The notes below the pieces were generated by a model. The model saw only the letters and a program-made list of their open reading frames with translations. It did not search any database and was not told where the DNA came from. From NCBI GenBank assembly GCA_030146905.1, contig JASLAV010000235.1, forward strand, positions 1 through 7,831: a stretch of 7,831 bases of DNA, read 5' to 3'. The position numbers were made by a program, and so were the translations under genes. How positions within the stretch are numbered: the stretch's first letter is position 1; every line of letters starts with the position of its first letter. The DNA comes from Lentzea sp. (GTDB lineage: Bacteria; Actinomycetota; Actinomycetes; Mycobacteriales; Pseudonocardiaceae). Below, piece after piece: positions 1-7,831 of this stretch.

Positions 1-423
1 CGCTCGTCCGACGGGCACGACGGGTTGATCTTGACGATGAGCCTGGACGGGGCCGGGGTGCCTCCGTTGCGCGAACTGCGGCATTCGGTGCGGCAGTTCG
101 TGGCGCACCTGGGAGACGAGTGCGCAGAGGACGCTGAACTGCTCGTCACGGAACTCGTCAGCAACGCGTATGACCACGGACTGCCGCCCATCGGCGTTCG
201 ACTGTGTCCGGTACCGGATTCGCCGTTGGTGCACATCGAGGTGGAAGACGGGGACCGGATGAATTTTCCACAGCTGGGAGTCCCACGGTTGGGCGGAGAC
301 CGCGGGCGCGGCTTGGTGCTGGTGGATCAGCTGTCGCTCAACTGGGGCTTCGACGTGACCGCGACGGGCAAGGTCGTATGGGCCGACTTGAGCTGCCGCA
401 GTTTAAGTGCCGTTCACAGCTGA
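1..423 (+). CDS. ATP-binding anti-sigma regulatory protein (SpoIIAB/RsbW-like, HATPase_c_2), possibly 5'-partial
   Basis: This is a small GHKL-type ATP-binding protein of the kind that acts as an anti-sigma factor or serine kinase in actinobacterial partner-switching. Counting from ATG 37, the N-box lies at about residues 39-48 (ELVSNAYDHG) and carries the Mg-binding Asn43. The G1-box Asp is D71 (VEDGDR), and the glycine-rich lid is at 86-92 (GGDRGRG), followed by LVLVDQLSLNWG, a typical family ending. The frame is open to the left edge. In-window starts are TTG 25 and ATG 37, neither with a clear Shine-Dalgarno. The hydrophobic strand LILTMSLD looks like the first beta strand of the fold, so a start at 37 would cut it and the true start may be upstream of the window. 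The stop at 421-423 overlaps the end of the convergent STAS gene by 10 bp. The family is clear; its partner sigma or STAS protein is inferred from context. Confidence 0.85.
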   Translation, partial: RSSDGHDGLILTMSLDGAGVPPLRELRHSVRQFVAHLGDECAEDAELLVTELVSNAYDHGLPPIGVRLCPVPDSPLVHIEVEDGDRMNFPQLGVPRLGGDRGRGLVLVDQLSLNWGFDVTATGKVVWADLSCRSLSAVHS

Positions 424-776
424 CCCAGTTGACGTGGGGTGGTCGCGTTGATCGCGTCCGTCACGGACGTTTCGAGCCTCAGCGACTGCGTCACGCCGGC
501 GAGGTCCAGCACTTTGAGGACACGGCGGGAGCCGACGATCCGGACGTCCACGCCGCGCGAAACCGCTGCAAGCAGGGTGTTGAGACCGGAGGAGTCGCAG
601 AAGGTCACGCCCGTCATGTCCAAGATCACTGGGCCTGACTCCGAAGTCGTCCGGTCGAGGTGTTCCGTGAGTTCAGGGGCTGTGTTGGTGTCCAACTCTC
701 CTGTCGCTGTGATGACCAGCGCCCGAGGGGTCTCGGCGACGCTCACCCGGAAATCATCGCCCGCTGGAAATGTCAT
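414..776 (-). CDS. STAS-domain anti-sigma factor antagonist (SpoIIAA/RsbV-like)
   Basis: This single-domain STAS protein of about 120 residues is the usual length for anti-anti-sigma factors. The signature DSSGL is at residues 61-65, preceded by VILDMTGVTFC. Ser63 corresponds to the serine phosphorylated by SpoIIAB/RsbW-type kinases, and unphosphorylated protein would sequester such a kinase to free a sigma factor. It faces the ATP-binding gene tail to tail with a 10 bp overlap, so the two are plausible partners; this is inference, since such proteins are often multi-copy. I chose ATG 776 (protein begins MTFPAGDD). An in-frame ATG at 797 would add seven unconserved residues, and a TATGCT box lies between the two. 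Neither start has a good Shine-Dalgarno, which fits leaderless translation from 776. The N-terminal start is uncertain; the family assignment is firm. Confidence 0.88.
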   Translation of the reverse strand: MTFPAGDDFRVSVAETPRALVITATGELDTNTAPELTEHLDRTTSESGPVILDMTGVTFCDSSGLNTLLAAVSRGVDVRIVGSRRVLKVLDLAGVTQSLRLETSVTDAINATTPRQLGQL

Positions 777-782
777 GTGCCT

Positions 783-788
783 AGCATA
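783..788 (-). promoter_or_regulatory. Candidate -10 box (TATGCT) for a leaderless STAS transcript
   Basis: On the minus strand TATGCT (TAnnnT type) ends six bases before ATG 776. That is the distance expected if transcription starts at the A of the start codon. No convincing -35 box is visible about 17 bp upstream, so this is only a candidate. Confidence 0.3.
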
Positions 789-797
789 TGGCCCCAT

Positions 798-1163
798 CGG
801 CAGCTTCGGGCGATGGGCTCGAGCGGCTTGCAGTGTGACGGTTCACGTCCTCGTCGATCACCTTCGGTCGTCCGCCGTGATTCCTTTCCGCGGCGGGTGA
901 TTGGAGGCTGCGCGTAAACAGGACCATCAGGCCGGGATATGTGGAATATCACCAGCAGGACACGAGACGAGCGCCACTCAACGCTGGTCACCGTCCTCAA
1001 GGGCAAGTTCGCAGGACGGCCAGCGACATCAGAACTGGTCGGCAGATCTCACAACTAGGTCGTGGATCACGAGTTCCTCATGACGGTGCCACCGACCTTC
1101 AGCCTCGCTCACTCGGCACCTGCCGACGACGCTTCAATGCCACCAATCATTGCGTTCAAGACT
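798..1163. other. Gene-free interval between the STAS gene and the amidohydrolase gene
   Basis: No reading frame here has recognisable protein features; the short open frames look like chance in high-GC DNA. The interval lies downstream of the amidohydrolase and upstream of the STAS gene. It holds a 6 bp GC stem (872-877 with 891-896, 13-base loop), a small dyad GATAT-5-ATATC at 936-950, and a GGTGCC/GGCACC pair (1085-1090 with 1115-1120) that could be part of a weak amidohydrolase terminator. None of these is strong. Confidence 0.5.
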
Positions 1164-2480
1164 TCAAGGTCGCGTGGCGAGGTCGGTGAGTTCTGCCCGT
1201 GGCGTCACGGTGTGCTGCTCCGACCAGGTTCCGCTCGCACGGACCGGTGAACGGCGGACCACGCCGGACTGCATGACGAATTCCACCCGGCCGACGGCGT
1301 CGATGTCGGTGAACGGATCGCCGGACACCGCGATCAGGTCCGCCACCGCGCCCGGCCTGATCACGCCCAGATCGGGCTGTCGCAGCAGTTCCGCGGCAAC
1401 GCTGGTGGCGGCGCGCAAGGCCCGCAGCGGACTGATGCCGTTGGACACCATCGAGCCGAACTCCCGCCAGGTCTCCGCGTGCGGGATCACGCTGGCGTCG
1501 GTTCCGAACGCGATCGTCACGTCGCTGTCGGCCAGATGTTCGGCACCGGCGCGCAGTCTGTCGGCATGGCGGCGGACCTTCTCGCGGATGAAGGCCGGTT
1601 TTCCTTGCCAGTACTCGTCGTCGTCGAGTTTGTCGACGAAGCCCAGCATCGCGTACTGGGTGGGGACGAGGTACGCGCCGTGTTCGGCGACCATGGCGAG
1701 CGTGTCGCGCGACGCCAGGCTGGCGTGCTCGACGGAACGCACGCCTGCCTGCACGGCCCGGCGGACAGCCTCGTCGTTGAGGGCGTGCACCGCGCACGGC
1801 AGCTCCAGGTCGGTGGCCGCGGCCACCAGTGCGCGCATCTCCTCGAGGGTGTAGGTGACCTGGGTCGGCTCGTCGTTGGCCGACCCGAACCCGCCGCTGG
1901 CCGCGAACTTGATCCAGTCCGCGCCGTGGCGCGCCTGTTCGCGCACCTTGCGCACCACCTCGGCGGTACCGTCGCCCAGCGTGCCGACCTCGATCCCGTA
2001 CCGGGCGGTCAGCCCGGGTTGCTTGTCGCCGTGGCCGCCGCGGGCGGAGATCAGGTTGGGCGCCACGATCAGGCGAGGACCTTCGATGACGCCGTCGGCC
2101 TGCGCCTGGCGCAGATCGACCGTGATCGGCTGGTCGGCACACCCCAGATCGCGCACCGTGGTGAACCCGTTGTGCAGCAACTGCCGTAGAGCGGGCAGCG
2201 CGGCCAACGTCTGATGGCCGACAGAGCTGGTCGCCAGTCCGCTGTCCAACACGTGCACGTGGCAGTCGATGAATCCCGGCAGCAACGTCCGCGCACCCAG
2301 ATCAATGGTCCGCACGCCGTCGGCACGAACCTCTCGCCCCACGTCGGCGATCCGGCCGTCTCGAACCAGCACCTTCAGCTGTTCCGAGGGGCGCTCGGAC
2401 ACGCCGTCCCACACGTGATCAGCCAGCAGCAGCACTTCGCCGTCGCGATCACCGCGTCGCGACTCCGTCGATGGGGACAC
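1164..2480 (-). CDS. Metal-dependent amidohydrolase (imidazolonepropionase/prolidase-like subtype)
   Basis: This 438-residue cytoplasmic hydrolase belongs to the amidohydrolase superfamily. It has the small N-terminal beta-sandwich (about 15-65), the TIM-barrel and the returning C-terminal strand region (GVIRPGAVADLIAVSGDP, 372-389). Metal ligands are all visible: H74 and H76 in DCHVH, bridging K191 in DWIKFAASGG, H232 in CAVHALN, H252 in VEHAS and D328 in AFGTDAS. The ARGGHGD stretch at 146-152 and the Lys-bridged binuclear site match the subgroup that includes Xaa-Pro dipeptidases, Lys/Arg-carboxypeptidase-like enzymes and imidazolonepropionase-like proteins. The exact substrate cannot be read from the sequence; hydrolysis of a dipeptide or cyclic amide is most likely. 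There is no signal peptide. The start is GTG 2480 with only a weak ribosome site; GTG 2435 is an alternative, since conserved sequence begins only around VLLLADHVWDG. No neighbour explains its role. Confidence 0.88.
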   Translation of the reverse strand: MSPSTESRRGDRDGEVLLLADHVWDGVSERPSEQLKVLVRDGRIADVGREVRADGVRTIDLGARTLLPGFIDCHVHVLDSGLATSSVGHQTLAALPALRQLLHNGFTTVRDLGCADQPITVDLRQAQADGVIEGPRLIVAPNLISARGGHGDKQPGLTARYGIEVGTLGDGTAEVVRKVREQARHGADWIKFAASGGFGSANDEPTQVTYTLEEMRALVAAATDLELPCAVHALNDEAVRRAVQAGVRSVEHASLASRDTLAMVAEHGAYLVPTQYAMLGFVDKLDDDEYWQGKPAFIREKVRRHADRLRAGAEHLADSDVTIAFGTDASVIPHAETWREFGSMVSNGISPLRALRAATSVAAELLRQPDLGVIRPGAVADLIAVSGDPFTDIDAVGRVEFVMQSGVVRRSPVRASGTWSEQHTVTPRAELTDLATRP

Positions 2481-2905
2481 AGCCCGGGTTGCCCGCCAGC
2501 GTCGTCACACATCCCGATGACCACCCGAAAGAGTGGAACGTTGCAAACCCCACCGCCCACCATGTCCGGTTGCGCATGCAATGGTCACCATGCGCGTCAG
2601 TCCGAGTCAGATGAGGAGCAGAGGCCGTCCGCTCCGGATTCGGCCTGGCCAGGGCGGTCGAGCATGTCAGCCGTGTCCAGGCCGGGTTCGGCTGGGCGTA
2701 CGCTACCAATACGACCGCCGGCCGGGGCGACTTGCGCGCTCACTTCCGGCCAGACTCATCCCGACCCCTCAGGTCACTCGAAAGTGGAAGCAATTCCGTA
2801 ATTGTGGGTAATGAGTGGTACTTCGTTTCACACGATTTTCCACCTGCTCCTCGATGCGTGATACGGGGAGCTGCTCAGTGGCCCGCATCGGTATGACGCG
2901 CGCCT
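2481..2905. other. Long gene-free divergent region upstream of sigK and the amidohydrolase
   Basis: This interval separates two divergently read genes. Short open frames on both strands show no recognisable domain, ribosome site or composition typical of coding DNA. The right part (about 2788-2845) is notably AT-richer than its surroundings. It contains the small dyad CAATT-4-AATTG at 2790-2803 and may hold additional promoter or regulator sites. Nothing else is supportable by eye. Confidence 0.5.
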
Positions 2906-2923
2906 CACCCATCCGAGTGGGTG
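2906..2923. repeat. Inverted repeat CACCCA-6-TGGGTG overlapping the sigK -35 element
   Basis: This is a perfect 6 bp dyad (2906-2911 and 2918-2923) with a 6-base spacer, and it overlaps the CCATCC box. It may be a regulator site on the sigK promoter, or chance. A second regulator at this promoter is inference only. Confidence 0.4.
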
Positions 2924-2935
2924 TCGGCTGCGAAT
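2909..2935 (+). promoter_or_regulatory. Predicted SigK-type ECF promoter of the sigK-rskA operon
   Basis: CCATCC (2909-2914), 16 bp, then CGAAT (2931-2935). From memory, the mycobacterial SigK promoter has a CCATCC-like -35 and a CCGAAT-like -10 at similar spacing, including in front of sigK itself. The same arrangement recurs before the lipoprotein gene at 7677-7703. A transcript would begin near 2942, which excludes ATG 2934 as the start of sigK and gives autoregulation. Confidence 0.65.
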
Positions 2936-2966
2936 GGAAGTCGCTGAGGTGACGAAGAGGAGCGCG

Positions 2967-3572
2967 ATGCGGAAGCGAGATCAGGCGCAGCCGGCCACCT
3001 TGCGTGGTTCTGAGGATCTCAGGGGATCAGAGGACGCGGAGGATCTGCTGTTGCGGGTGGCGCGCGGCGACGAGGCGGCGTTCGGGCGGTTGTACGACCT
3101 CGTGTCGGGCATGGTGTTCGGACTCGCGCGCCGCGTTCTGCGAGACCAGGCGCAGTCGGAAGAGGTGTTCCAGGAGGTCATGCTCGAAGTGTGGCGAACG
3201 GCCAGCCGGTTCGACCCGGCCCGCGGCAAGGCCACGACCTGGATCATGACCATGACACATCGGCGTGCCGTCGACCGGGTGCGTTCCGCGCAGGCGGCGG
3301 CCAACCGAGATGAACGAGCCGCGGCGATGGAAGTGGCGACTCCGTTCGACGAGGTCGTCGAAAAGGTCACCGAGCGTCTCGAACAGCGCAAGGTCCGGCG
3401 TTGCCTGTCCTCGCTGACCGACTTGCAGCGCGAGTCCGTGCTGCTGGCCTATTACCGGGGTTACACCTATCCGGAGGTGGCCGGCCTGCTCGACATCCCG
3501 CTGGGCACGGTGAAGACGCGGATGCGTGACGGGCTGATCAGACTCCGGGACTGCTTGGGGGTGACGGTGTGA
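2967..3572 (+). CDS. sigK: ECF RNA polymerase sigma factor SigK
   Basis: This is an extracytoplasmic-function sigma factor of 201 residues counted from ATG 2967. Region 2 spans about 37-107 (DEAAFGRLYDLV through HRRAVDRVRS), including core-binding and -10 recognition helices. Region 4 spans about 140-197, with the helix-turn-helix TYPEVAGLLDIPLGTVKTRMRDGL. The SigK assignment rests on overall sequence style, the adjacent RskA-family gene and the dipZ neighbourhood. Only two cysteines occur, C146 and C196, spaced like the redox-sensitive pair of M. tuberculosis SigK. I chose ATG 2967 because GAGGAG (2957-2962) precedes it and the predicted transcript begins near 2942. ATG 2934 and GTG 2949 are in-frame alternatives, but the first lies upstream of that start point. 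The N-terminal tail contains a repeated RGSED. The stop overlaps the next gene's GTG by four bases, so translation is coupled. Confidence 0.9.
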   Translation: MRKRDQAQPATLRGSEDLRGSEDAEDLLLRVARGDEAAFGRLYDLVSGMVFGLARRVLRDQAQSEEVFQEVMLEVWRTASRFDPARGKATTWIMTMTHRRAVDRVRSAQAAANRDERAAAMEVATPFDEVVEKVTERLEQRKVRRCLSSLTDLQRESVLLAYYRGYTYPEVAGLLDIPLGTVKTRMRDGLIRLRDCLGVTV

Positions 3573-4306
3573 ACACGTCGTCAGAGCTGCACACGCTCAC
3601 AGGCGTCTACGCCGTGAACGCCTTGTCCGACTCCGAACGTGTCGACTTCGAAGGACATCTGGCGCACTGCCCGTCCTGCGCCCAGGAAGTCGCTGAACTG
3701 CAGGCCACCTCGGCCGCACTCGCCGCGGCGGCGGACCTTGCGCCACCTGCGCACCTGCGGGCTCAGGTGATGGCGGGCGTGGCGGCCGCACGTCAGCTGC
3801 CACCGGAGACGCCCGCCCCGGTGGCCGCTGCGCTCGTGTTCCCGAGCCGGAGACGGTGGCTGGTCCGGACGAGCGTGCTGGCGGCTGCCGCCAGCGTGCT
3901 CATCGCGATCGTGGTCGGGGTCCAAGGCGTGCAGGATCGCCGAGAACTCGACGCGCTGCGGCAGTCGGCCGCCGGCTACAGCCAGGTTTCGGACCTGCTG
4001 ACCGCTCCCGACGCGAAGCTCCTGAGCGACTCGGGATCCGCAGGCGGGAACGGAACCGTGGTGGTCTCATCAAGCCGCAACAAGGCGGTGTTCCTCGCCA
4101 GCGGGTTGCCATCGCTGCCCGCGGACCGCACGTACCAGCTGTGGGTGGTCGGACCTGCCGGACCACGCTCGGCCGGTCTGCTGCGGGACGAGCCCCTGGT
4201 TGCCGATGGCCTGGCCGGTGCACGGGCGTTCGCGTTGACCGTCGAACCGAGCGGCGGCTCACCAGCCCCCTCGACGGCTCCGGTTCTCGCGATGCCGGTG
4301 ACGTGA
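3569..4306 (+). CDS. rskA: Membrane anti-sigma-K factor RskA
   Basis: This single-pass membrane anti-sigma factor should hold SigK inactive at the cytoplasmic face. The N-terminal cytosolic anti-sigma domain (1-75) carries the zinc-type motif H30-x3-C34-x2-C37 (HLAHCPSC), preceded by HTLTGVYAVNALS, typical of the family. A single membrane helix lies at about 98-118 (LVRTSVLAAAASVLIAIVVG), after a basic FPSRRR stop. The outside part (about 120-245) is the anti-sigma-K domain, with YQLWVVGPAGPRSAGLL and the characteristic C-terminal FALTVEPSGGSPAPS. At 245 residues it is close to family length. The start is GTG 3569 in the GTGA overlap with the sigK stop. In M. tuberculosis the homologous protein is cut by regulated intramembrane proteolysis to release SigK; the same route is inferred here. 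The gene ends just before a strong hairpin. Confidence 0.92.
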   Translation: MNTSSELHTLTGVYAVNALSDSERVDFEGHLAHCPSCAQEVAELQATSAALAAAADLAPPAHLRAQVMAGVAAARQLPPETPAPVAAALVFPSRRRWLVRTSVLAAAASVLIAIVVGVQGVQDRRELDALRQSAAGYSQVSDLLTAPDAKLLSDSGSAGGNGTVVVSSSRNKAVFLASGLPSLPADRTYQLWVVGPAGPRSAGLLRDEPLVADGLAGARAFALTVEPSGGSPAPSTAPVLAMPVT

Positions 4307-4314
4307 TCCGAACG

Positions 4315-4354
4315 CGACATGACCCGAAGGCCTGATGCCGTCGGGGTCATGTCG
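4315..4354 (+). terminator. Hairpin terminator after rskA
   Basis: An 11 bp perfect stem pairs CGACATGACCC (4315-4325) with GGGTCATGTCG (4344-4354), and can be extended by a further GA/TC pair past one bulged G. It begins 8 bases after the rskA stop. There is no T-run afterwards, which is usual for high-GC actinobacterial terminators. It marks the end of the sigK-rskA transcript. Confidence 0.7.
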
Positions 4355-4465
4355 TCTCCGCTGGTGTTCAGACAAGGCTCATGATCAACGGGATCGCCTC
4401 GGACCCGGCTGTGCGGCCTGATAAGTCGGTGGCTCGCCTGGAAGCGCCTCGTTAACCTCCGTTCG

Positions 4466-5365
4466 GTGATCTATGAAGACCCGCGGGCGTACCTGCTCGG
4501 GCTTGAGGGCCTTGCGTTGTTGCGCGCGTTCACCGGAGAGTTCGACCGTGACTTCGTGGAGGCCCGGATCGCGGAGATCCGCAGAGTGCTCGCCGACGAG
4601 GTGTTGGCGAACGCGGCTGTGGAGGTCGACCGGGTCGACACGGTCACGGGCTATCGGCTGTGGTCGGCGACGTATGACCAGCCGAACTCGTCGTTCGACA
4701 TCGATGAGCCCGTGGTCAAGGGGATCGTGAACTCGCTGCCCGTGGGTGTTGCTCTGGATGCCGCCTGCGGGACTGGCCGCTACGCCGAGTTCCTGGCCGG
4801 GCGCGGCCACCGGGTCGTCGGCGTGGACGGCTCGCCCGACATGCTCGCGCGGGCGCGCACTCGGGTGCCGCAGGGCGAGTTCCTGCTCGGTGATCTGCGT
4901 CGGCTTCCGGTGGGTGACGCCGAGGTTGATCTGGTCGTGTGCGCCTTGGCGCTGACCCACGTCCCGACGCTCGAGCCGGTGATCGCGGAGTTCGCCAGGG
5001 TTCTACGCCCGGGTGGGCACCTGGTGATCGCCGACATGCACCCTGATCGGGTGGCGCAGGGTGCGATTCCCTCCGTGCGCAGCGGTGACGGCCGGCCCGG
5101 CAGGCTGAGTGCCCACCGCCACCTGGTCGGTGACTACCTGCGTGCCGCGCTGCCGGTGGGACTGCGCGTGCGGCGCTGCGAGGAACCTCCCCTGCCGGCC
5201 AGCACCCGGCCGGGGCCTTCGGAGGGGACGGACACGCTCGGGGAACCAGGACCGTGGGAGCTGTGGCCGTGGTGCCTGGCCGGCATGGTGCCCGAAGCGG
5301 CACGAGCCGCCAACGCGGGTGCGCCGGCGCAGATCATCTGGCACTTCCAGCTGGACGAGTCGTGA
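4466..5365 (+). CDS. Class I SAM-dependent methyltransferase
   Basis: This 299-residue cytosolic methyltransferase has a Rossmann-type SAM fold at about 90-195. Motif I is LDAACGTGRYAEFLA (97-111), the acidic end of beta-2 is D121 in VVGVDGS, motif II-like residues lie at LLGDLRRLP (140-148), and the post-motif III strand is RPGGHLVIAD (181-190). An N-terminal helical extension (1-85, beginning IYEDPRAYLLGLEG) is shared with a family of uncharacterised actinobacterial methyltransferases that I recognise only in general terms. The substrate is unknown; small molecule or lipid are both possible, and the C-terminal part is Pro- and Arg-rich before a WELWPWCLAG stretch. It is not a cyclopropane-fatty-acid synthase type by its motifs. 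The start is GTG 4466; no good ribosome site is visible. It lies between rskA and the convergent trxA, but the hairpin at 4315 suggests separate transcription. Confidence 0.85.
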   Translation: MIYEDPRAYLLGLEGLALLRAFTGEFDRDFVEARIAEIRRVLADEVLANAAVEVDRVDTVTGYRLWSATYDQPNSSFDIDEPVVKGIVNSLPVGVALDAACGTGRYAEFLAGRGHRVVGVDGSPDMLARARTRVPQGEFLLGDLRRLPVGDAEVDLVVCALALTHVPTLEPVIAEFARVLRPGGHLVIADMHPDRVAQGAIPSVRSGDGRPGRLSAHRHLVGDYLRAALPVGLRVRRCEEPPLPASTRPGPSEGTDTLGEPGPWELWPWCLAGMVPEAARAANAGAPAQIIWHFQLDES

Positions 5366-5411
5366 CACCGCCCAGGACTTCAGGTGGTTCGCAACCAACG
5401 TGCTCGTTCTG

Positions 5412-5443
5412 GGCAGGGTGCGGGTTGGTGTCGTCTCCCTGCC
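5412..5443. terminator. Candidate bidirectional hairpin between methyltransferase and trxA
   Basis: GGCAGGG (5412-5418) pairs perfectly with CCCTGCC (5437-5443) around an 18-base loop, in the 83-base gap between convergent gene ends. A competing 6 bp stem (5394-5399 with 5424-5429) overlaps the loop. The position favours a shared terminator, but the loop is long and there is no T-run. Confidence 0.4.
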
Positions 5444-5448
5444 GGTGT

Positions 5449-5769
5449 TCAAAGCCAGGCGGAGAGCGCTTTGAGGATGTCTGCGCGCTTGCGTGGTGCC
5501 GTGAGGATCGAGACGGGCTGCCCTCCGGAGAACAGGATCAGGGTGGGAATGCTCAGCACCTGGTAGCGGATGGCGATGCCGGGGTGGGCGTCGATGTCGA
5601 CCTTGACGACCGAGATCGCGTCCTGGTGTTCCTCGGCGATGCCGGTTACGACCGGGCTGAGCTGCTTGCACGGGCCGCACCACGGCGCCCAGAAGTCGAC
5701 CAGCACGGGCTTGTCCGAGGCGAGAACGGTGGCGTCGAAGGAATCCGTGGTCACGTCTGCGAGCTGCAT
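5449..5769 (-). CDS. trxA: Thioredoxin (cytosolic)
   Basis: This 106-residue classical thioredoxin has the active site W30-C31-G32-P33-C34-K in VDFWAPWCGPC, the cis-proline P76 in the SIPT loop, and D25 as the buried acid. There is no signal peptide or membrane segment, so it acts in the cytosol. It is transcribed just after dipZ: only 12 bp separate the genes, and its ribosome site (AGGA, 6 bases before ATG 5769) sits in that gap, so they form one operon. A cytosolic thioredoxin is the normal electron donor for CcdA-type membrane domains, which makes DipZ its likely partner. The usual GAxPK segment before the last helix is replaced by TAPRKRADIL, so the docking face may differ slightly from housekeeping thioredoxins. 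It could also serve general disulfide reduction, possibly including SigK. Confidence 0.93.
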   Translation of the reverse strand: MQLADVTTDSFDATVLASDKPVLVDFWAPWCGPCKQLSPVVTGIAEEHQDAISVVKVDIDAHPGIAIRYQVLSIPTLILFSGGQPVSILTAPRKRADILKALSAWL

Positions 5770-5781
5770 GGGAGTTCCTCA

Positions 5782-7518
5782 TCATCCGAAGGTGAAGGAG
5801 AAGGCCTGGACGCCGGGGCTGACGGTCGCGGTGAGCGAGCCGCCCCGGACCTGTTGCGTGGCGAGGAGCTGGTAGGAGTTCGGGGTTCCGTCGACCTGGA
5901 TGGTCTTGGTCTGCCCGTTCTGCTCGATGGTGACGGTTCCCTTGCCGGACAGGACCATCCGCACTTCCTTGGCGCGGTAGTTGAGCCTGATCTGCCGGGG
6001 CTGCTCTGCGGGGGTGATGGACTGCGTGTCCAGCGTCCAGTCGCCCGCCAGCGCGAAGCTGTCCGCAGGCTGGTTCTCGGGGAACTGGAAGGACTTCTGG
6101 CCGCTGGTGTAGGTCTCGGTCCCGGCGAAGTTCACGCGTTTGGTCGAGCCGAGGTAGGTCTCGCGGGTGATGTCGGCGATGACCGGCGTGTCGTCGGTCA
6201 GTTCGGTGGCGGCGGGGAGCTGGACACCGGGCTTGGCGTCGTCCAGGAGTTGGCGGATCAGCTTTTCGGTGACCTGGTAGTCGCCTTCGCCGAACTTGAT
6301 GTGCCGCACGGTGCCTTGGGCGTCGATGAGGTAGTGGGCGGGCCAGTAGCGGTTGCGGTAGTTGGTCCAGGTACCGAGGTTGTTGTCCAGGGCGACCGGA
6401 TAGGTGATGCCGAAGTTCTTCGCGGCGGCCGCGACGTTGCCGGGTTCCTTTTCGAAGGCGTATTCGGGGGAGTGGATGCCGACGACCTGGAGGCCGGCGT
6501 CGCGGTAGGCCTTGTCCCACGCGGTGATGTGCGGGATGGAGCGCTGGCAGTTGATGCAGGAGTAGGCCCAGAAGTCGAGCATGACGACCTTGCCGCGCAA
6601 TGACTTCAGGTCGAGCGCCTGGCCGTCCGGGGTGCCCAGCCACTGCTGGATGCCGGTGATGTCCGGCGCGATGCCGCAGCTCTCCAGCTCAGGCGCGCCG
6701 TCGGAGCACTTGTCGAGATCCTTGTTCTGGTCGTTGACCAGTCCTCCGAGGTTGAGCGCTTTGCGGACCTGCTCGGAGTTGTTCACCTTCTCCTGCAACG
6801 AGCTGGTGTAATCGGGGATGACGCGCTGCAGCAGCTGGGGGAGGTTGAACACCAGGCCGATCGCGAGTGCGATCATCACGAGGCCCGCGGTGATGCGGAT
6901 GGCGCGCTGGCGCTTGCGGAAGGACTGCACGCGTTCGGCGACCCGGCGGCCGGCGAGGGCGAAGATCAGCAGCGGGATGGCCGCGCCGACGGCGAACGTG
7001 AGCGTGAGGACCACGGTCTCGGTGCCGATCCTGCCCGTGGAGCCGGCGACGGTGATGGCGGCGAGCACCGGGCCGGCGCACGGCACGTAGACCGCACCCA
7101 GCGCCAAGCCGAGGGTGAACCCGCCACGGCTGGCGTCCGGGTTGCGCTGCGGGATCCAGGTGAAGGGCTTTTCCAGCAAGTGTTCGAAGCGCGGCACCAC
7201 AAGGCCGACGCCGATCAGGATGAGCACGGCGATCCCGGCCCAGCGCAGGACGTCCTGCGGCAGGTTCAGCAGTGTCAGCAGCAGGGAGCCGAACAGGGTG
7301 ACCAGGCTGAAGCTGACGACGAGCCCGGCGATGACGAGGTAAGGCCGGGTGCGCGAGGCCGGCTTGACCGCCAGCGCCACACCCGATCCCGGCCCAGGCG
7401 TCGTGCGGGCGCTCTGCGTGCCGCCGGAGAAGAAGATGACGGGCAGGACGGGCAGGATGCACGGCGAGATACCGGTGACCAGGCCGCCGATCAGACCGAT
7501 CAGTGCGAGGGTCAACAT
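5782..7518 (-). CDS. dipZ: DipZ-like transmembrane thiol-disulfide carrier (CcdA + thioredoxin-like + CBM-like domains)
   Basis: This 578-residue membrane protein matches the M. tuberculosis DipZ architecture. Residues 1-230 form a CcdA/DsbD-type membrane domain with about six helices and the paired cysteines C20 (GISPCILPVLP) and C147 (YVPCAGP), which carry electrons across the membrane. Residues about 285-430 form an extracytoplasmic thioredoxin-like domain with the SCINC motif (C321, C324) in LDFWAYSCINC. Residues about 440-578 form a beta-rich carbohydrate-binding-module-like domain, as in DipZ. C271 and C281 in the linker may form a further disulfide. I chose ATG 7518, which begins at the first helix (MLTLALIGLIGG) after AGTAGG six bases upstream. 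In-frame starts at 7554 and 7692 would add hydrophilic residues with no signal-like character. Electrons would pass from the cytosolic thioredoxin to extracytoplasmic substrates. In mycobacteria dipZ sits in the SigK-controlled mpt83-dipZ-mpt70 operon. Confidence 0.93.
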   Translation of the reverse strand: MLTLALIGLIGGLVTGISPCILPVLPVIFFSGGTQSARTTPGPGSGVALAVKPASRTRPYLVIAGLVVSFSLVTLFGSLLLTLLNLPQDVLRWAGIAVLILIGVGLVVPRFEHLLEKPFTWIPQRNPDASRGGFTLGLALGAVYVPCAGPVLAAITVAGSTGRIGTETVVLTLTFAVGAAIPLLIFALAGRRVAERVQSFRKRQRAIRITAGLVMIALAIGLVFNLPQLLQRVIPDYTSSLQEKVNNSEQVRKALNLGGLVNDQNKDLDKCSDGAPELESCGIAPDITGIQQWLGTPDGQALDLKSLRGKVVMLDFWAYSCINCQRSIPHITAWDKAYRDAGLQVVGIHSPEYAFEKEPGNVAAAAKNFGITYPVALDNNLGTWTNYRNRYWPAHYLIDAQGTVRHIKFGEGDYQVTEKLIRQLLDDAKPGVQLPAATELTDDTPVIADITRETYLGSTKRVNFAGTETYTSGQKSFQFPENQPADSFALAGDWTLDTQSITPAEQPRQIRLNYRAKEVRMVLSGKGTVTIEQNGQTKTIQVDGTPNSYQLLATQQVRGGSLTATVSPGVQAFSFTFG

Positions 7519-7590
7519 GTGGGGCCTACTCGGATTGACGGAAGTGCGTGACATCCCTGCTTCGTCACCGGCACATGCCCGGATTGGCCA

Positions 7591-7608
7591 CCACGGTGTC
7601 CACTGTGG
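7591..7608. repeat. Imperfect palindrome in the dipZ/lipoprotein intergenic region
   Basis: The 18-base sequence CCACGGTGTCCACTGTGG matches its own reverse complement at 14 of 18 positions. It lies about 75 bp upstream of the dipZ start, where a regulator or the dipZ promoter could be. Its function is unknown. Confidence 0.35.
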
Positions 7609-7651
7609 ATGCTCGACATGTTTTTCCTGGTGGCGTGCAGTGCGCGAGCAA

Positions 7652-7675
7652 TCTGGTAACAAATCGATAACCAGA
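7652..7675. repeat. Inverted repeat TCTGGT-12-ACCAGA upstream of the lipoprotein -35
   Basis: The outer 6 bp arms (7652-7657 and 7670-7675) are perfect, and the inner two bases add one further match. A 24-base dyad ending one base before the -35 box has the size and position of a dimeric regulator's site between divergent genes. It may act on the lipoprotein, on dipZ or on both; this is inference. Confidence 0.4.
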
Positions 7676-7676
7676 C

Positions 7677-7703
7677 CCATCTGTTCCTCCAACGGCAGCG
7701 AAT
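7677..7703 (+). promoter_or_regulatory. Predicted SigK-type ECF promoter of the lipoprotein gene
   Basis: CCATCT (7677-7682), 16 bp, then CGAAT (7699-7703). Both boxes and the spacing repeat the element upstream of sigK (2909-2935), and GCGAAT is identical in both -10 regions. Transcription would start near 7710, giving a leader of about 36 bases before ATG 7747. Confidence 0.65.
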
Positions 7704-7705
7704 CA

Positions 7706-7722
7706 CGAGCAACAACTGCTCG
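7706..7722 (+). promoter_or_regulatory. Stem-loop at the predicted 5' end of the lipoprotein mRNA
   Basis: CGAGCA (7706-7711) pairs perfectly with TGCTCG (7717-7722) around ACAAC. It straddles the predicted transcription start, so it could be an operator or, if the transcript starts slightly earlier than estimated, a 5' mRNA hairpin. Confidence 0.35.
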
Positions 7723-7746
7723 AACACTCCTTGGAGATGTCCCGCC

Positions 7747-7831
7747 ATGAACAAGACCGTCCGCAACACCGTCCTCGCCACCGGCGCCGTCTCGCTCGCC
7801 CTGTTCGGCGCGGCGTGCGGCTCGGGCGACA
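7747..7831 (+). CDS. Secreted lipoprotein, N-terminal part (candidate MPT83/fasciclin-like); partial at right edge
   Basis: Only the first 28 codons are in the window. They encode a lipoprotein signal peptide: a charged start (MNKTVRN), a hydrophobic core, and a lipobox-like FGAAC with the lipidated residue at C24, then GSGD. The residue at -3 is Gly instead of the usual Leu, but such FGAAC boxes are seen in actinobacterial lipoproteins. Start ATG 7747 is preceded by GGAG (7733-7736) at ten bases. The gene is divergent from dipZ and lies behind a SigK-type promoter. In M. tuberculosis dipZ is flanked by mpt83 and mpt70, fasciclin-domain proteins of which MPT83 is a lipoprotein, so the same kind of product is likely. 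This identity is inference from context; the mature domain is not visible. Confidence 0.75.
   Translation, partial: MNKTVRNTVLATGAVSLALFGAACGSGD

Follow-up and report, generated by a model that had tools for sequence, protein, structure and literature searches.

The window analysed here, a stretch of 7,831 nucleotides from Lentzea sp. (contig JASLAV010000235.1, positions 1 to 7,831 of the forward strand), carries the genes of the sigma factor SigK and its anti-sigma factor RskA, a dipZ-like gene and the beginning of a gene for a fasciclin (FAS1) lipoprotein, together with three SigK-type promoter sites and a direct repeat beside one of them. We consider it very likely that the window represents a SigK-RskA regulon in compact form, from a Lentzea-like actinomycete outside Mycobacterium. 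The genes and sites concerned are these:

2909 to 2935, plus strand: SigK-type promoter of sigK-rskA, CCATCC-16-CGAAT
2967 to 3572, plus strand: sigK, extracytoplasmic function (ECF) sigma factor of 201 amino acids (NF007228, 285 bits against a cut-off of 226; PDB 4nqw)
3569 to 4306, plus strand: rskA, anti-sigma factor with HxxxCxxC in the N-terminus and an RskA_C domain (PF10099, 101.5 bits; NF052375, 211.5 bits)
5449 to 5769, minus strand: thioredoxin (TIGR01068, 106.5 bits)
5782 to 7518, minus strand: dipZ-like membrane thiol-disulfide protein with DsbD_TM, AhpC-TSA/Redoxin and Thioredoxin_10 domains (PF02683, PF00578, PF17991)
7560 to 7586, minus strand: third, relaxed SigK-type site before dipZ, CAATCC-16-CGAAG, CAATCCGGGCATGTGCCGGTGACGAAG
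7656 to 7672, plus strand: 11-bp direct repeat GTAACAAATCGATAACC, GTAAC-N6-ATAACC, candidate box of the OmpR family (MtrA/GlnR-like), 4 bp before the -35 element
7677 to 7703, plus strand: SigK-type promoter of the FAS1 lipoprotein gene, CCATCT-16-CGAAT
7747 to 7831, plus strand: first 28 codons of an MPT70/MPT83-type FAS1 lipoprotein gene that runs past the window end; N-terminus like that of the orthologue in locus L001

The sigma factor matches PDB 4nqw, a structure named SigK, with an E-value of 2e-49, and both of its cysteines are aligned (C146 and C196 in the window, equivalent to 133 and 183 in M. tuberculosis). We prefer the ATG at 2967 as the start of sigK over the ATG at 2934, since AGGAG precedes the former and the latter falls within the -10 element. 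The sigK and rskA genes overlap by 4 bases, and the PF22618 (RskA_N) score of the RskA protein lies marginally under the cut-off of that model (26.7 against 27), with PF10099 and NF052375 exceeding theirs. The thioredoxin gene probably shares an operon with dipZ. The lipoprotein orthologue in L001 has 218 amino acids and a fasciclin domain (PF02469), and its best solved relative is MPT70 (PDB 1nyo, E-value 8e-63). Among the best 80 of 91 loci, the nearest are L001 (87%, titled Nocardia sp. NRRL S-836) and L002 (85%, Lentzea albidocapillata); likewise, the best named SigK relatives among the matches listed (120 of 7997) are proteins of Lentzea, a member of the Pseudonocardiaceae (85% for P0002 and P0005).

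A sequence-only reading of this DNA had proposed two matching SigK-type promoters, one before sigK and one before the lipoprotein gene. Both motifs lie where it had placed them, with identical 16-bp spacers and a G preceding CGAAT in each; this shared G carries no weight, since relatives show either G or C there. The strict motif CCATC-N17-CGAAT matches the two strands of the window twice; 200 dinucleotide shuffles averaged 0.01 matches, and none of them reached two. That no other copy exists holds under the strict motif only. A relaxed motif, C[ACG]ATC[CT]-16-CG[AG]A[TCG], whose degeneracy was chosen after inspecting relatives, gives three matches against 0.27 expected (three were reached in 2 of 300 shuffles), the third being the minus-strand site at 7560-7586. 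The idea of a single, divergent target has to be given up, as dipZ has a site of its own, the site stands before two or more FAS1 genes in several relatives, and the lipoprotein gene at 7747 lies on the strand of sigK, with dipZ as its divergent neighbour. As for a recognition code conserved outside Mycobacterium, the statement is correct but not novel: the mpt83-sigK-rskA cassette and the SigK site have been reported as conserved in other Actinobacteria and in Yersinia (PMC7509140, citing Veyrier 2008).

Conservation across relatives supports the assignment of these sites as SigK-type promoters, with autoregulation and a lipoprotein target. An exact site is present at 34 of 44 distinct FAS1 start contexts, the window included (33 with a 16-bp and one with a 17-bp spacer), and a variant site (CAATCC, CCGTCC or CGAAC) occupies the same position at another seven; of the last three, one falls at a contig edge and one in an assembly gap, and the third, on the Allokutzneria contig L200, has no site. 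The column information, computed on 36 FAS1 promoter sequences under 80% identity, reaches 1.82 bits in the -35 and 1.96 bits in the -10 element; in the stretch from -70 to -36 upstream of the -35 it is 0.22 bits. Each genome holds one to seven lipoprotein matches, contig-edge fragments counted, so that "one target" misdescribes several relatives. In the Streptomyces loci, the relaxed site was found within 250 bp of only 1 of 32 FAS1 genes, and the FAS1 control is thus not carried over to them.

The genome-wide scan that the sequence-only reading had proposed left its promoters standing. It covered the 20 related genomes from which loci L001-L025 come (judged by locus title, two Allokutzneria and 18 Lentzea-type, among them one titled Nocardia sp.), with Streptomyces genomes left out, and returned 83 occurrences of CCATCY-16-CGAAT against 20 of the reversed pattern, with enrichment before FAS1 genes: 33 matches lie upstream of this lipoprotein family and three upstream of sigK. 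A further three precede a distant ECF factor and two an Allokutzneria oxidoreductase, 11 fall in one coding stretch (HTAKGLE codons) of a gene that we take to be UvrD-like, and 31 have no assignment. With the last two groups in mind, we rejected the strict motif counts as sole evidence. The distant ECF gene, found in L096, L128 and L137, is 31-34% identical to SigK and has CCATCC-16-CGAAT 28 bp upstream of its start, possibly reflecting cross-talk or an autoregulated ECF factor with a similar code. In the Allokutzneria loci L081 and L101, the motif lies 7 bp before the oxidoreductase gene, which is divergent from sigK (PF00174 in L081).

Two types of SigK occur in L001-L023, the window-like type A and a type B that mostly has CGATCC..CGAAC and is usually divergent from FAS1. 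A relaxed site lies upstream of 21 of 26 Lentzea-type sigK genes (1.5% in shuffles), reading CGATCC..CGAAC in 15, CCATCC..CGAAT in four, the window included, and otherwise in the remaining two; the window -35 and -10 elements are identical in L001-L003. Among the Streptomyces and other loci, 51 of 56 sigK genes have a site (shuffles 1.9%), and 48 of these read CAATCC-16-CGGAT, a lineage-specific form of the sigK site carried by most Streptomyces sigK genes (L026-L080). A search across the order gave a site at 19 of the best 30 sigK matches, 15 of them CCATCC..CGAAT (shuffles 4.7%); these sites were sought within 1.1 kb, so intervening genes are possible.

The pattern C[AG]ATCC-16-CGAA[CGT] stands in all nine aligned dipZ upstream regions (the window, seven Lentzea-type and L200), in surroundings that have diverged. 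Seven full-length dipZ genes were found in the 18 Lentzea-type genomes, and by coordinates each of them has a FAS1 gene as its divergent neighbour; at the threshold applied, 12 of these 18 genomes gave no dipZ match. The dipZ ATG of L131 and L173 lies 7 bases 3' of the -10 element, a position that would fit a leaderless start. An automatic count placed the relaxed site before 8 of 8 Lentzea-type dipZ genes (shuffles 1.3%) and 8 of 11 in the genus labelled G295 (1.8%). We take the latter to be presumably Mycobacterium, based on a FAS1-dipZ order like mpt83-dipZ-mpt70 and on SigK and FAS1 proteins matching 4nqw and 1nyo. The corresponding shuffle rate for the other Pseudonocardiaceae is 2.5%; their count is taken up below.

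Beside the lipoprotein -35 element we found the direct repeat, which is probably a second input to this promoter, as a candidate predicted from its sequence and placement. We counted 75 copies of GTAAC-N6-RTAACC across the 20 genomes, against 18 for the reversed control. Of these repeats, 38 lie 87-93 bp upstream of the start in 38 of 44 FAS1 genes (those whose match begins at residue 1, a set that differs from the 44 promoter contexts above), and six lie elsewhere. The remaining 31 are one identical sequence, GTAACACGTGGGTAACC, found in Lentzea-type genomes and often at contig ends, which is probably the end of an insertion element. Within the repeat, column information amounts to 1.64 bits for the half-sites and 1.04 for the N6, and the promoter spacer reaches 1.03; as the N6 and the spacer are partly conserved too, part of the conservation is due to shared ancestry.

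We also scored the repeat more loosely (GTRAC twice, at least 9 of 10 positions) at FAS1 promoters with a SigK-like site, which among the best-scoring loci were 37 of 40 Lentzea-type (a few Allokutzneria loci included in the 37), 17 of 25 other Pseudonocardiaceae and 28 of 42 G295-genus genes. It was present at 35 of 37, 6 of 17 and 12 of 28 of them, respectively, and mononucleotide shuffles reached this score in 0.4-0.6%. At the other SigK-type sites it was nearly absent: 1 of 21 Lentzea-type, 0 of 51 Streptomyces and other, and 0 of 19 order-wide sigK sites, and 0 of 18 dipZ sites. With a score of at least 8, which shuffles reach in 3-6%, the same sets gave five, four and no sigK sites and one dipZ site. 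Fisher tests of FAS1 against other sites gave 3.5e-15 for the Lentzea-type set and 7e-10 for the rest, values computed on related and hence non-independent sequences. At this lower score, 5 bp separate the second half-site from the -35 element in all 36 Lentzea-type promoters. The distance is 14-15 bp for 7 of the 9 promoters from other Pseudonocardiaceae, and for 10 of the 14 G295-genus promoters it is 5, 15 or 16 bp. The difference of about 10 bp corresponds to one helical turn, which suggests that a bound regulator would contact RNA polymerase from the same face. Against such contact counts the lack of any repeat scoring at least 8 in 14 of 28 G295-genus and 8 of 17 other Pseudonocardiaceae FAS1 promoters.

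Several observations weigh against reading the window as a SigK-RskA regulon. The lipoprotein -35 element reads CCATCT rather than CCATCC; the identity of the window lipoprotein rests on orthologues because its gene is cut after 28 codons; among other Pseudonocardiaceae only 2 of 6 dipZ genes have the relaxed site; and in L004, L005 and L006 the sigK gene of the window-like type A lacks a good site, the best matches showing 2-3 mismatches. Moreover, another SigK may serve the window sites, since 6 of 18 Lentzea-type genomes encode two SigK-family proteins above the cut-off. We think it unlikely, if worth keeping in mind, that the main reader of the sites is a type B SigK, as a second paralogue, or another ECF factor from a different locus, with the local SigK autoregulating without being the main driver of the lipoprotein gene. 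Such an arrangement would fit the FAS1 promoters, which look alike beside type A, type B or no sigK, and the CCATCC-16-CGAAT site of the distant ECF gene described above. It sits poorly, however, with the arrangement of sigK and FAS1 in one small cluster with matching -35 and -10 elements (L001 and the window), with the CGATCC-16-CGAAC sites that type B sigK genes mostly use themselves, and with the other 12 of 18 genomes, which have a single SigK above the cut-off and still have the FAS1 site. Highly improbable, in our view, is that the motif matches arose by chance or are inherited and play no part in regulation. The motif is short, 31 of its 83 matches are unassigned (reversed control 20), the coding stretch contributes 11 more, and the spacer and N6 show the partial conservation expected of shared ancestry. 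Yet information falls to 0.22 bits upstream of a promoter whose half-sites, -35 and -10 elements are far better conserved, and further copies stand upstream of sigK in Streptomyces loci, as well as upstream of sigK, FAS1 and dipZ in other genomes of the order. The gene identities, the sites and their conservation are what the analysis shows, and we regard the promoters as real and as belonging to a regulon already known.

Which regulator would bind the repeat is a closer question. With about even confidence, we propose that the FAS1 promoters are composite from Lentzea to part of the mycobacteria, an OmpR-family regulator, most likely MtrA, binding the 11-bp repeat phased to the -35 element, and that the sigK and dipZ promoters lack this input. 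MtrA is preferred, without strong evidence, on the form of the half-sites and on its envelope function. The window box shares with MtrA boxes of Streptomyces, Corynebacterium and Mycobacterium the direct repeat of GTnAC half-sites with an 11-bp period; it differs from them in being predicted from sequence, with two mismatches to the S. coelicolor MtrA consensus GTAACCNNNNNGTAACC (PMC12323332), and GlnR boxes fit it equally well or better. That the repeat is instead a GlnR (nitrogen) box or the site of another OmpR-family regulator is a serious if somewhat doubtful alternative. In S. venezuelae, GTnAC-n6-GTnAC is among the GlnR boxes (PMC10704036, Table 2), and the three forms of the FAS1 box have 0-1 mismatches to this pattern, compared with 1-2 to the MtrA consensus. 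Lentzea-type amtB promoters carry GAAAC-n6-GTAAC in 17 of 17 cases, but this GAAAC half-site is unlike the RTAACC of the FAS1 boxes. MtrA is encoded once per genome in the 17 of 18 Lentzea-type genomes searched. The best 11-bp repeat within 400 bp before mtrA, a promoter taken as positive control for MtrA, is weak (7-9 of 10; a 9 in 6 of 17, about 325 bp upstream), which may speak for GlnR or another regulator. So may the main texts on the M. tuberculosis MtrA regulon, PMC6265350 and PMC11215152, which do not mention sigK, the latter not mentioning mpt83 or dipZ either. On the side of MtrA, its box in M. tuberculosis consists of two degenerate 7-mers with a 4-bp spacer (PMC6265350, PMC11215152), and the G295-genus form GTGAC-N6-GTGAC fits the half-site cGTnACc at that spacing; furthermore, the MtrA regulon would suit a cell-surface lipoprotein better than nitrogen assimilation does.

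In the mechanism that we propose, RskA would keep SigK inactive until an extracytoplasmic or redox signal arrives. Freed SigK would then transcribe the sigK-rskA operon from 2909-2935, the MPT70/MPT83-type lipoprotein gene from 7677-7703 and, probably more weakly, dipZ-trx from the minus-strand site at 7560-7586. As has been suggested for mycobacteria (PMC9861118), DipZ may aid disulfide formation in the exported lipoprotein. The OmpR-family repeat would probably add a second input at the lipoprotein promoter alone of the three.

The remainder of the window holds one bystander between rskA and the thioredoxin gene, which is missing there from the gene order of L001:

4466 to 5365, plus strand: S-adenosylmethionine-dependent methyltransferase open reading frame (PF08241)

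Near the left end, within 1-797, a cut HATPase_c_2 gene (RsbA-like) is convergent with a gene for a STAS-domain anti-sigma antagonist.

The window resembles the SigK-RskA regulon of Mycobacterium in its sigma/anti-sigma pair, in both SigK cysteines and in its targets, namely the FAS1 lipoprotein, dipZ and sigK itself; the presumed Mycobacterium genus of our data set has the same -35 and -10 elements with a 16-bp spacer. In M. tuberculosis, mpt83, mpt70 and dipZ each have a SigK-dependent promoter (PMC9861118), and the M. bovis regulon consists of the mpb83-dipZ-mpb70 locus and the sigK locus (PMC10540498). The window, in contrast, unites sigK-rskA and dipZ-FAS1 in one cluster, its dipZ is transcribed away from FAS1 and has a thioredoxin gene behind it, its dipZ site lies further from the consensus, and FAS1 is present in more than one copy in several relatives. 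With the mpt83-sigK-rskA cassette known outside Mycobacterium (Veyrier 2008, 2020; PMC7509140) it shares the conserved cassette as well as the SigK site. A literature search on CCATCC with SigK returned only works on other subjects, as judged by title.

The window thus offers a self-contained SigK-RskA circuit outside Mycobacterium, to which our analysis adds the third site, before dipZ, and a plausible second-input repeat. The stimuli inducing SigK-RskA in mycobacteria have been called obscure (PMC9861118), and if the repeat is a real response-regulator site, it would provide a concrete second input to seek. The lipoprotein genes could then respond differently from dipZ and sigK. By analogy, the light response of M. 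kansasii, in which mpk83 and mpk70 are induced and the intervening dipZ is not (PMC9861118), would fit such a second input. Should the composite promoter be true, the release of SigK would not act alone on lipoprotein output, which would also need, or be adjusted by, a second signal from the envelope or from nutrients.

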